Part shown: positions 6,641-51,165 of the stretch, piece after piece
Numbering within the stretch: the stretch's first letter is position 1
How the letters are laid out: the number at the start of each line of letters is the position of its first letter
The notes under the pieces: generated by a model
The model's database searches: none
What the model saw: only the letters and a program-made list of their open reading frames with translations
Told to the model about the DNA's origin: nothing
DNA from: Bisporella sp. PMI_857
Taxonomy: Eukaryota; Ascomycota; Leotiomycetes; Helotiales; Helotiaceae
Assembly: GCA_021307315.1 (NCBI GenBank)
Contig: JAJSPD010000008.1
Location: forward strand, 744,001-808,000
Direction of reading: 5' to 3'
Length of the DNA: 64,000 bases
Program-made: the position numbers and the translations under genes

Positions 6641-8395
6641 TCATTCATCACTCTCTGAATTCTGGAGCACCCAGCCTCTACTCATCTCTACAGCTTGTTC
6701 CCACTTCTTGAACATCGCTGCGCTTATCTTCGGGTCCATGGCCGGTTTGAAGATCTTCCTGTCATTAACATTGATCTCCTTCAGCTCAGCAAACTCTTTC
6801 CAAATATCAACTGCAAAACCAGCAGCAATCGCTGCTCCAAGCGCAGTTGTTTCTCGCATGGCCGGTCGGTCGACTTGTATGCCAGTGATATCTGCTTGGG
6901 TCTGCATGGTCAGGTCCGAATTTGACATGCCACCGTCGACTGCCAAGCTCTCCAGCTTGTGCCCGGAATCCTTTTCCATCGCGTCTAGAATAGCTTTGGT
7001 TTGATAGCAGGTTGCTTCCAGTGTGGCGCGTGCGATGTGGCCACGCTGGGTATGCTGTGTGATTCCAAACAAGGTTCCTTTTGCATCATCAATCCAGTAC
7101 GGAGCAAAAAGGCCACTAAAAGCGGTGACGAATACTACACCGCCGTTATCTGTGACGGTTTCTGCTAGTTCTGTAATCTTTGCGGACTCTTGGAGAAAAC
7201 CTAAGTTATTGATTAAGAATTTGACTCCAGACCCCGCGACTGCGATACTGCCTTCAAGAGCGTATATAGGTTACGACCACCACCGAAGTCGTACGCTACT
7301 GTTGCAAGAAGGCCATACTTCGATATGACTGGCTTTTCGCCAACATTATACAGTAAAAAGCATCCTGTGCCATATGTGTTTTTGCCTGACCAGGTTCGAA
7401 ACCACATTGTCCGACTAGTGCGGAAGACTGGTCACCTAGACAGCCTGTGATTTTTATGCCTTCTAAGGCGCCGCTGGATAGTTTTCCATACGCATCTTTA
7501 TCGGACGATGGTACAATTTTAGGTAGAGTGATATTTTTCTGGTCAAGTTTGAAGAAGTCGAGGAGTTTGTCATCGTACTGGAGAGTATGGAGGTTCATGA
7601 ACATTGTCCGAGAGGCATTTGTCGCATCTGTGACATGAATGTTGGCCTCTTTGCCACCGTTAAGCTTGTATACCAGCCACGTATCCACTGTTCCGAAGGA
7701 CAGCCTGCTCTCGTCATATGCTTTTTTAACCGATTCGACATTCTCATACATCCACAGAAATTTTACACTAGAAGGATATGTCGAAAGTGGCAGACCGCAG
7801 AGCTGTTGTAGTTCTTCAGAGCCTTCTCGCTTCTTAAGTTCTCGCACTAGGGCGGTCGTTCGCGTATCTGGCCAAACTATAGCATTATATAACGGCTCGC
7901 CAGTATTCGTATCCCAGCAAATAGTAGTTTCTCGCTGATTTGTTATGCCAATGGCTTTGATGTCTGTCTTCTTGTGCCCGAGCTTGAGAAATTCTTCCGT
8001 AGCTTTGTCGATACACTCGTTGACAGAGTCAACCAATTCTTGGGGATTATGTTCATGCCATCTATGGAGAGTTAGCTTAAGAGTTAAGTTTCGAAATGGA
8101 GTAATAAGTTTACCCAGATTCTGGATATAGATTTTCGAATTCGATTTGATGGCCCGCCACAGGAGTGCCTGTACCGTCAAAAATGAGGAAACGTGATGAG
8201 GTTGTCCCACAGTCTATGCTGCCAATGAACCAATGTGCCTTCCTCTCCTAGTCTCGGCCACGCCCTTTGGTAGATGCTTGTGAGATTCTGCCGCGGCAAC
8301 CTTCACATCTTCAACATGTTCGGACTTTACATCGGGCAGTTGTTGCTTCACGGGGCATCTAATGGAGCCGGTATCAAGCTGGGAACTTGCTCCAT
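6641..8395 (-). CDS. GUT1: Glycerol kinase (FGGY family)
   Basis: Phosphorylates glycerol to glycerol-3-phosphate with ATP in the cytosol, the entry step of glycerol use. Reading from ATG 8395: a variable head beginning [15 protein letters not shown], then the phosphate-binding signature [18 protein letters not shown], the WHEHNPQEL region after an intron (GTAAAC to TAG, about 8112-8059), [13 protein letters not shown] with the glycerol-contacting [24 protein letters not shown], the [14 protein letters not shown] segment, [13 protein letters not shown], and the C-terminal [16 protein letters not shown] and [17 protein letters not shown] blocks. Length fits the fungal family. The frame breaks at 8352-8355 (C run on the coding strand), about 8240, 7379-7383 (A run) and about 7269. 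Each is fixed by one base. Coding is otherwise complete to the TGA at 6641. Confidence 0.93.
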
Positions 8396-12921: not shown

Positions 12922-13964
12922 ATAATTCATGATGATGGCGAGTAATGACACTGTACTTGAGTCCCAGATGTTGGCTTGATGCGAAATGTTGTAAAAGGTA
13001 AATAATTGATTCACGATGTTCATGCTCCAAGGGATGCTTCTACGCCTGTTTGATATACTCAAGCTCGTTGACCAATTGTTACTGAACTAACCTTGTCTTA
13101 TGTTAATTCTCATGACGCCTCTTTTTTTCATTTTGTAACATTGAAGCTTGTGATTGCATTCAATATACACCAGACTTTTTCCTAAACACGTTTCTCACAT
13201 CGGAAAACTTAAGAGATATCAGACGATGCAGATGCAGTATAGCACAGATCAGGTATGCAGTAAACAACGTTAATTTTTATGCTATGCTCTGCGGATGCTT
13301 ACTTATAAGCTTATTCTCAATCTGTGAAACCTTTGATGCAAGTGGCTTGCATGCGTAATACAGTACTTCACAAATAGCAGAATTCACAAAGATTGCGGTT
13401 AGTATCTAAACAGTTTCTTTTGCCACTTATACTAGAGCTTTGATCGTGAGTTAACTTACGAGCTACAAAGCTTTATTGTTATTACCTTGACTACTAGCTG
13501 TAAGGTGGGCTGATATTTTACTATAACTTCAAACACCCGCAGGTGGAGATAAAAGTTACTTAATTACAGAGTTCTAGGCGAATCCCATATTAATCTTAGT
13601 CCTTGCAAAATATGTGAAAAACATTTCTAGCTTAGTCTCGGATTTAGCAATGTATTATATGCTTTGGTATATAAACTTCCAGAACTTAGGCACAGGCCCG
13701 TGGTATCATTATGAGGCGAGGCGCGCAAATGCCCCTTTAGTGTTCATCCACTGAACCAACCATTGCCATCTGCTGTATAAGAACTTGCTTACCTCCTTAC
13801 CTATTTTTTTTTCTACCAAATGAGTCACTGGGTTGAAAACGTATTATAGCACCTGTTAAGCAATCGTTTGGTCAACAAGCATTTAAGCGAAGGCGAGATG
13901 CGGCACAATCCATGTTACTAATATATATTTGGATAATTTTCCATTTAGCAAAATAAGTAGATCT
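12922..13964. other. AT-rich intergenic region, no gene seen
   Basis: Left half of an AT-rich stretch between POL12 and the tRNA-Arg gene. Stop codons are frequent in all frames. I saw no exon chain, transposase motif or tandem array. Confidence 0.5.
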
Positions 13965-13971
13965 GCTCCAA

Positions 13972-13982
13972 TGGCGCAATGG
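13972..13982 (+). promoter_or_regulatory. Pol III box A of tRNA-Arg
   Basis: TGGCGCAATGG matches the internal promoter A-box consensus TGGCNNAGTGG at all but one position. It lies wholly upstream of the D-arm insertion, so the insertion leaves it intact and only lengthens the A-to-B spacing by 53 nt. Confidence 0.75.
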
Positions 13983-13984
13983 TA

Positions 13985-14037
13985 GTAAGTTATACTAAAC
14001 CACCACCTCTTTCAATTATTCCTAACGTCTTTCCTAG
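13985..14037 (+). other. Spliceosomal-intron-like insertion inside the tRNA-Arg D-arm
   Basis: A 53-nt segment flanked by TAG on each side, so the excision point is ambiguous by three bases. The register starting GTAAGT and ending CTAG has a strong 5' splice site, a CTAAC branch-point core and a pyrimidine-rich 3' end. Its size and signals match the protein-gene introns of this window (for example the 53-nt introns of DID4 and eIF2B-delta). Confidence 0.65.
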
Positions 14038-14067
14038 GCGCGCGAGACTTCTAATCTCGAGGCTGAG

Positions 14068-14078
14068 GGTTCGAGCCC
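14068..14078 (+). promoter_or_regulatory. Pol III box B of tRNA-Arg
   Basis: GGTTCGAGCCC fits the B-box consensus GGTTCGANNCC in the T-arm. Confidence 0.75.
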
Positions 14079-14097
14079 TCTTGGAGTGATATATCTC

Positions 14098-14102
14098 TTT
14101 TT
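14098..14102 (+). terminator. Pol III T-run terminator
   Basis: Five consecutive T residues begin 10 nt after the tRNA-Arg discriminator base, the normal place for RNA polymerase III termination. Confidence 0.6.
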
Positions 14103-49217: not shown

Positions 49218-51165
49218 ATGTTTGGCAACTCTGGACCTCAGAAGGACGCGGAATCATCTAATTCGGAATCGCCTGTGACGTCTGCGAACTCAAATAAGAG
49301 CAGTTCTACATCAAAAACTCAGGATGATACCGGAAACGGGGAAAAGCGAAGTGGTAACGGCAGTCCTCAAGGCCGACCTTTTGGAGATAATGGAGGAGAA
49401 AAGAAACGTCGTAGTAGCGGAGTAGCCGGCAAGGCTGGGTCTCTTATTGCCAGAGCACAGAATCACTTCAGCCAAAGTCCAAACTCTGGAGGGAAGGGAG
49501 CTGAGCAGAATATTCAAACTCCGCTACAGAAGCTTGGAAGAAGATCCTGCTCTAAGCGTTCCTCAAGGACAGCATAATAACTCAGCGGGCGAATCTCATC
49601 CGGGACCACGATCTACCTTCAGAGTTGGCGTCTGGGAAGACAAGAATAAGAAATGTAGACGAACGATGGAGGACACACATGCTTTTTTATACAACTTTCT
49701 GCACACGCCTGCACCTGCTCTGGGACAAGAGTCGCCTTCAATCAGCTCCAAATCACGAAAGTCCAGCGACGACGCAACTGACGCTGATGACTCGGCCAAC
49801 AACCTTACTTTAGTGACCTCTTCGGCAGAAATGTTGGAAACAGATAATGGCTATTTTGCGATCTTTGATGGTCATGCCGGCACTTTTGCAGCTGATTGGT
49901 GTGGTAAGAAGTTGCATATCATTCTTGAAGAAATGATTCGAAAAAATCCTAACACATCTATTCCCGAACTCCTTGATATGACCTTCACAAGCGTCGATAA
50001 TCAACTAGAGAAACTCCCTGTAAAGAATAGTGGATGCACAGCTGTAACCGCAGTTCTTCGTTGGGAAGACCGCATACCCAATGCGCAGTCAGCGACTGGT
50101 TCCACTGCTATTGCTACAGCTACGGCTGCAGCCCTGAAAGCTTCAGAGGAGGCGATCAAGAATGAGGATCAGCCTGGCGATGGTGCGGTCGACATAAGCA
50201 AAACACCAGCACAACAACCAAATGCGGCTGCTAGTGCTGCAAGCGCTGCAATTGCAAGCCCCCAGTCGAATGAGGCGACCCACGCAAAGCTAAAGAATAC
50301 TGCCTCACGCCAACGAGTTCTTTATACCGCAAATGTTGGTGATGCTCGAATTATACTGTGTCGTGGCGGGAAAGCCCTACGTCTATCCTATGATCACAAG
50401 GGAAGTGATGAGAATGAGGGAAAGCGTATTGCTAATGCTGGGGGTCTGATTCTCAACAACCGCGTCAATGGCGTTTTGGCAGTCACTCGGGCGTTAGGGG
50501 ATGCTTATATGAAAGATCTCGTAACGGGCCACCCATATACTACTGAGACTGTCATTCAACCCGATGTGGACGAATTCATGATTCTTGCTTGCGATGGCGT
50601 AAGTTCATAAGCCTTCCCCTAGGAGTCCAGAATGTACTAATGTATCTCACAGCTTTGGGATGTCTGTTCTGATCAGGAAGCTGTCGACCTAGTCCGCAAT
50701 CAACAAGATCCCAATTCAGCAGCTAAGCAACTCGTTGACCATGCTCTTGCCCGCTTCAGTACCGACAATCTCTCTTGCATGGTTGTTCGTTTCGATAAAA
50801 CAGCTCTACTGACAACTGCTAAAGAACCTTCCTCAGCGATTGGCGTAGAAGGTGACCCTCTTTCTCATCCAGGCAAAATCTCTGAGGTAGAGAAGATTGT
50901 CAATGACGCAAAGAGAAGGGTGGCAGAGGATGGAGTTCCTGGGATTGGGGTTAGCGGCAGCAATTCTGGCAAAGGTCACGATCCTCAGGTGATTGATGGC
51001 GAAACTATACCCGGTATCGGCGCCATGGAGAAAGTTGTCGAAGAAGAGCCTACTCTGGTTGATGGCGACGCACCAGAAGCTAGCATTGAAGGTGCAAACG
51101 CCTCGCTGAACAACGCTATAGATATTCAGTTAAAGTTGCCGGAGAAGGTCGCCAATACCGAATAA
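49218..51165 (+). CDS. PTC1: Protein phosphatase 2C, Ptc1-like
   Basis: Metal-dependent Ser/Thr phosphatase that dampens MAP kinase (HOG and cell-wall) signalling in yeast. A disordered 140-residue N-terminal region ([20 protein letters not shown], then [20 protein letters not shown]) precedes the PP2C domain: [40 protein letters not shown] with the metal-binding [81 protein letters not shown] and [10 protein letters not shown] with the second metal-ligand Asp. An Ala/Gln-rich insert of about 70 residues lies between the SGCTAV and TANVGDA motifs. The C-terminal tail (about 115 residues) is acidic and Gly-rich. One intron, 50599-50652. A one-base break near 49545 joins the two reading frames. 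Confidence 0.9.

Follow-up and report, generated by a model that had tools for sequence, protein, structure and literature searches.

In textbook nuclear tRNA splicing a single enzyme pair serves a single intron position; the introns of fungal nuclear tRNAs lie one base 3' of the anticodon (37/38) and are cut by the tRNA endonuclease. Introns in U6 were reportedly studied by Canzler et al. in 2016. According to the available portion of PMC5832005, U3 and U6 alone among small structured RNAs are known for frequent interruption by an intron. In archaea the D-arm and other arms of tRNAs can hold introns, and the red alga Cyanidioschyzon merolae carries them outside 37/38, all based on a bulge-helix-bulge fold, and in C. 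merolae spliceosomal introns occur in a few protein genes only, as far as the accessible text of PMC3978253 goes. The reference list of PMC11782384 includes a title on mRNA-type introns in the nuclear rRNA of some fungi, and the available part of PMC8450103 describes the non-canonical intron search of tRNAscan-SE 2.0 for archaea only. Among the titles and abstracts listed we found no report of spliceosomal introns in nuclear tRNA genes; most subscription journals lay outside the scope of that search, so one may exist.

The window (the whole 64-kb stretch of DNA analysed here) carries a tRNA-Arg(TCT) gene interrupted in its D-arm by an insert with the signals of an mRNA intron, which lies at 21/22 and not at the canonical position 37/38 (Table 1). 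This anatomy and its borders had been proposed in a first-pass annotation made from the letters alone, and they are borne out: ARAGORN reports no tRNA in the unaltered window and tRNA-Arg(tct) after removal of the insert. The splice-site and branch-site motifs, the intact anticodon loop, both promoter boxes and the T run that it had listed are all present in the sequence. With the exons joined, the gene has a cloverleaf and its anticodon (ARAGORN) together with the internal promoter boxes (by eye); GGTA of exon 1 is followed by GCGCGCGAG of exon 2, a junction that slides by one base with the same product and is quoted here in the GT-AG register. With the Rfam tRNA model, 14018-14088 obtains 30.1 bits, above the cut-off of 29, and this match starts inside the insert. 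We consider it highly probable, from the sequence features described below, that this is a working tRNA-Arg(UCU) gene with a spliceosomal (U2-type) intron.

Table 1. Features of the split tRNA-Arg(TCT) gene in the window, and the other tRNA genes found with an mRNA-type intron.
Feature	Locus	Position in window	Strand	Description
tRNA-Arg(TCT) exon 1		13965..13984	+	20 nt; 5' acceptor strand, D-stem 5' strand GCGC, D-loop (letters in exon 1, AATGGTA)
Box A TGGCGCAATGG		13972..13982	+	uninterrupted; by eye on the sequence
mRNA-type intron		13985..14037	+	53 nt, between tRNA positions 21 and 22
5' splice site GTAAGT		13985..13990	+	read from the sequence
Branch-site motif CTAAC		14022..14026	+	branch A at 14025 (12 nt short of the 3' end of the intron)
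3' splice site TAG		14035..14037	+	read from the sequence
tRNA-Arg(TCT) exon 2		14038..14088	+	51 nt; D-stem 3' strand GCGC to discriminator base, including anticodon arm, T-arm and 3' acceptor strand
Anticodon TCT in intact loop CTTCTAA		14050..14052	+	read from the sequence
Box B GGTTCGAGCCC		14068..14078	+	uninterrupted; by eye on the sequence
T5 run, Pol III terminator candidate		14098..14102	+	read from the sequence
Lys-TTT	L085			intron at 9/10
Initiator Met	L115			intron at 15/16
Ala-CGC	L117			intron at 20/21
Ala-CGC	L128			intron at 21/22
Pro-TGG, three genes	L083, L037, L116			intron in variable loop; L116 cut by contig end
Lys-CTT, three genes	L113, L114, L127			intron in T-loop at 57/58; L127 cut by contig end

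The PP2C protein of the window has its best match, at 95%, in Bisporella sp. PMI_857 (Ascomycota, Leotiomycetes, Helotiales), very probably the fungus studied here. The 55.6-Mb assembly (284 contigs, with the window on contig C241) was searched for an intronless TCT gene. BLAST of the joined Arg-TCT tRNA against the whole assembly returned two split copies and nothing else among the matches listed; the second copy occurs on contig C263 only, and the two are identical over the 10,000 bases compared. Other matches on these contigs also fall in mirrored pairs. C241 (1.18 Mb) and C263 (1.16 Mb) run antiparallel, pointing to either a redundant assembly or a duplicated chromosome. A fixed intronless Arg-TCT pattern allowing up to three mismatches hit a single place, the Arg-CCT gene. 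A pattern for the 3' half gave 81 matches, which were sorted by length and T-loop letters; besides the split copies, 31 of the 81 were examined as DNA, and the letters of the match served to judge the remainder. After sorting, one 29-nt and four 30-nt strings were left, again besides the split copies. The 29-nt string and three of the 30-nt strings are no tRNA as read (ARAGORN was empty at the three loci), and the fourth 30-nt string, at C135:279397 and with an unusual variable loop, stands outside the four that were checked. ARAGORN was empty at 29 of 30 loci of this pattern, the exception being the Pro gene L037. A pattern for the 5' half, able to pick up TCT genes with an ordinary anticodon-loop intron as well, gave 68 matches; none of the 23 run through ARAGORN read as a tRNA, and the other 45 were judged from letters. 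Eighteen strings passed a lenient D-stem filter, and each of the seven among them that had a suitable length (28-31 nt) was run through ARAGORN with the same outcome. A TCT gene that departs from these patterns or falls in a gap of the assembly would escape such searches. The genome-wide look for other TCT tRNAs that the first-pass annotation had called for yielded no intact TCT gene among the matches listed.

AGA makes up 37 of the 123 Arg codons in three reading frames of the window, 30 of the 37 coming from one frame rich in Arg-Ser and Arg-Asp repeats. AGA codons are decoded by tRNA-Arg(UCU) alone. Since AGA is used and has this one reader, the split gene must work unless a TCT gene is hidden elsewhere; it is apparently the sole supplier of an essential decoder.

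The Arg-TCT gene has company. mRNA-type introns interrupt at least 11 of 62 tRNA-like places, the window gene included, a proportion that is no fair share because the searches favoured relatives of known tRNAs. The 62 are our own count (49, 1, 7, 3 and 2 new ones, the C241/C263 pair entered once) and include some degenerate places and one that is probably mitochondrial; isoacceptors outside the located set include Phe, Asp, Glu, Tyr and Leu-CAA. Counting 20/21 and 21/22 as one, the introns occupy five places within the tRNA molecule. Intact copies were found for Lys-TTT, Lys-CTT and initiator Met; for Pro-TGG there is none among the matches listed, all three copies found being split. Joined exons read as the expected tRNA in ARAGORN for 9/9 genes with a complete intron, and the same genes left unjoined give nothing in five cases and a wrong intron or isotype in four. 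The Rfam tRNA model exceeds its cut-off in six of nine split loci (a set without L037 and with the truncated L116 and L127), through matches that are partial or carry long inserts. Once its mRNA-type intron is taken out, L117 still has an ordinary 20-nt anticodon-loop intron, and L127 has, besides its T-loop GTAAGT, a 9-nt insert in the anticodon loop that is apparently an ordinary intron as well.

Several further loci are irregular in other ways. The Gly-TCC gene L086 (C230:974195-974266 and upstream) has a partly repeated 24-nt insert between the acceptor stem and the D-arm (GGTGGTCTAATGGT / TGATGGTCTAATGGTT), without clear splice signals. L119 (C256:104850-104990) and L120 (C252:1059440-1059620) are Gly-TCC-like with an anticodon-loop insert; by eye their 5' acceptor strand mismatches the 3' strand, and they are possibly split or decayed. 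ARAGORN reads L077 (C24:174371-174462) as tRNA-Pro(cgg), but its anticodon loop read by eye is 22 nt long, possibly owing to another unusual intron.

The nine complete tRNA introns are 50-55 nt long and all begin with GT and end with AG. Their 5' ends read GTRAG in eight cases, initiator Met having GTAAAT, and their 3' ends read YAG in seven, the two Pro introns ending in AAAG, a weak 3' splice site. Every one contains CTAAC or CTAAT, whose branch A precedes the end by 10-12 nt; in shuffles of each intron, CTAAY falls 8-16 nt from the end in 2-6%. The introns of three U6 genes (53-58 nt, branch A 11-13 nt from the end) and two mRNA introns of the window (52 and 54 nt, branch A 10 and 12 nt from the end) are built alike. 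The two mRNA introns compared are that of the glycerol kinase gene, whose border was read by eye, and PP2C intron 2; PP2C intron 1 (49477-49540, 64 nt, GTCCAA..GAAG) was left out of the comparison and has neither the shared motifs nor a branch motif. The likeness to the mRNA introns of the window asserted in the first-pass annotation therefore holds for the glycerol kinase intron and PP2C intron 2 and fails for PP2C intron 1. No intron set came from a HAM1-like search.

The U6 introns occur in three of the five genes above the family cut-off (L107, C124:560638; L108, C1:676873; L109, C213:221911), at one common site, AATTT/GT...AG/GAAACGATACAG, and with diverged sequences; the other two genes, L105 and L106, are intronless and diverged. 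With introns in three of five U6 genes, Pol III precursors very likely reach the spliceosome in this fungus. 5S rRNA was considered as another split Pol III gene and rejected, its nine matches over the cut-off spanning 115-122 nt end to end.

A strict intron pattern (GTRAGT..CTAAY..YAG, 45-62 nt) occurs four times on the plus strand and once on the minus strand of the window, whereas 20 single-strand Markov sequences contain it 0.2 times on average; one of the five matches is a PP2C intron and one is the Arg-TCT insert. That the borders of the insert coincide exactly with restoration of a tRNA is not chance. A dispersed repeat, raised in the first-pass annotation as a sign of random insertion, was rejected as the origin of the insert, since 13960-14037 has no match apart from itself and the duplicate contig.

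Comparison among sibling genes separates exons from introns. The complete Pro-TGG copies have identical exons and introns that agree to 62%, the conserved parts being the 5' site, CTAACAG and the 3' end; intron identity is 74% for Lys-CTT and 61% for Ala-CGC. The two Ala-CGC introns are offset by one base, and both restore GGGGTATGATT. Splicing is favoured both by exons that stay identical beside diverged introns and by offset introns that yield one and the same D-arm. Intact siblings fix the intron borders of Lys-TTT L085 (by L021) and of Lys-CTT L113 and L114 (by L004), save 1-2 bases of slide, and those of initiator Met (by L006) with a slide of at most two bases.

Likeness among the Lys-CTT genes L004, L113 and L114 starts about 10 nt upstream of the gene and stops 31 nt downstream of it, the sequences outside being unrelated; this shared stretch approximates the extent of a precursor transcript. 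L004 lacks the intron exactly and runs into AAAAAA where its likeness to L113 and L114 ends, and it may have been copied from a precursor that was spliced but still untrimmed; gene conversion could also have produced it. In these genes a conserved trailer stands beside diverged introns. The trailer holds GGCTCAATTCC, one base off the box B motif, which might stand in for the box B that is split by the Lys-CTT introns. The introns of Lys-TTT and initiator Met cut into box A, which the end of the Lys-TTT intron rebuilds save one base (by eye). With box A or B interrupted in these three kinds of gene, their transcription is less certain.

Such damage to box A or B is one of the points in favour of dead genes, that is, of introns or intron-like pieces that landed in tRNA genes whose copies persist as pseudogenes; another is that the split Lys-TTT, Lys-CTT and initiator Met genes have intact copies and could be dispensable. 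Some of the split copies with intact siblings could indeed have died by insertion. For Arg-TCT and Pro-TGG this account does not hold up well, since no intact copy was found among the matches listed, and it sits poorly with exons that stay identical while the introns diverge and with the GT...AG ends and branch motif in place in all nine complete inserts. As an explanation of the split genes we judge it unlikely. Of the two options left by the first-pass annotation, an intron that killed this copy is accordingly not favoured, no intact TCT gene having been found among the matches listed, and processing by the spliceosome is supported, both by that result and by at least ten more tRNA genes with such an intron.

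The insert might instead be cut by the tRNA splicing endonuclease and sealed by a ligase, like the ectopic introns of archaea and Cyanidioschyzon with their bulge-helix-bulge fold. One point for this is that ordinary anticodon-loop introns are common in this genome (12 of 49 places by ARAGORN, with a misread Pro gene set aside). D-arm tRNA introns are known in archaea, red algal precursors are disrupted outside 37/38, and relaxed archaeal folds, even without a helix, are described in the available text of PMC3978253, so that a missing strict motif is no full exclusion. In its strict form, with a 4-bp helix between two 3-nt bulges at the junctions, the fold was found in none of the nine complete introns in any allowed register, and this strict reading of the inserts was rejected; the best helix has three of four pairs in two Pro genes and one or two in the others, and three or more arise by chance in 15%. 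GTRAG, CTAAY and AG at fixed spacing are unexplained by that pathway, which we hold to be very unlikely here.

An assembly artefact or a chance tRNA-like match can be practically dismissed: two apparent frameshifts relative to homologs in the glycerol kinase gene (window 7270-7401, minus strand), due to assembly errors or decay, do suggest that base-level errors may exist, but the identical sequence stands on two contigs and the pattern recurs across no fewer than 11 genes, of which the nine complete ones restore the tRNA exactly.

The split-gene structure is, on sequence evidence, real, recurrent and spliceosomal in kind, and the mRNA splicing machine is very probably also needed to finish some tRNAs in this fungus. 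We infer the transcription, spliceosomal removal of the intron and use in translation of the Arg-TCT gene as follows. RNA polymerase III, directed by the internal boxes A and B, would transcribe as far as the T run, and in this precursor GUAAGU, CUAAC and UAG would be recognised by the spliceosome; the 53 nt would leave as a lariat and GGUA would be joined to GCGC, closing the D-arm, before ordinary tRNA maturation. The same route would serve ten or more further tRNA genes (Lys-UUU, Pro-UGG, Lys-CUU, initiator Met and Ala-CGC), and both splicing machines would be required by Ala-CGC L117 and, it appears, by Lys-CTT L127. It seems rather likely that the spliceosome acts here as a second, obligate tRNA-splicing machine, on which the decoding of AGA relies (and, should every Pro-UGG gene be split, perhaps some of that of proline), with some pre-tRNAs needing both machines and with ongoing gain or loss of spliceosomal introns in tRNA genes.

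It seems that mRNA introns have invaded the tRNA genes of this fungus at five places. If so, translation would be coupled to spliceosome activity through an apparently sole-source decoder, and uncapped Pol III precursors could undergo routine splicing. Intact and split sibling genes would provide a set for dating intron gain or loss. tRNA annotation can miss or misread such genes, as ARAGORN does in 9/9 cases.

Among known systems, the ectopic introns of archaea and C. merolae likewise lie outside 37/38; according to the accessible text of PMC3978253 they rest on a strict or relaxed bulge-helix-bulge, the strict form of which is absent here. The fungal rRNA introns, known to us from the title cited in PMC11782384, are like ours of spliceosomal type and in a non-coding RNA, but their host is rRNA and not Pol III tRNAs. 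Canonical 37/38 introns also interrupt tRNA genes, and occur in L117 and apparently L127 beside the mRNA-type intron; the introns described here differ from them in position, in their GT..CTAAY..AG signals and in having no strict bulge-helix-bulge. Fungal U6 snRNA and U3 snoRNA, too, are small structured RNAs with mRNA-type introns, and theirs are removed by the spliceosome; unlike in U6 and U3, the hosts here are tRNAs of several isoacceptors, interrupted at five places in the molecule, and one of the genes is apparently the sole supplier of an essential decoder.
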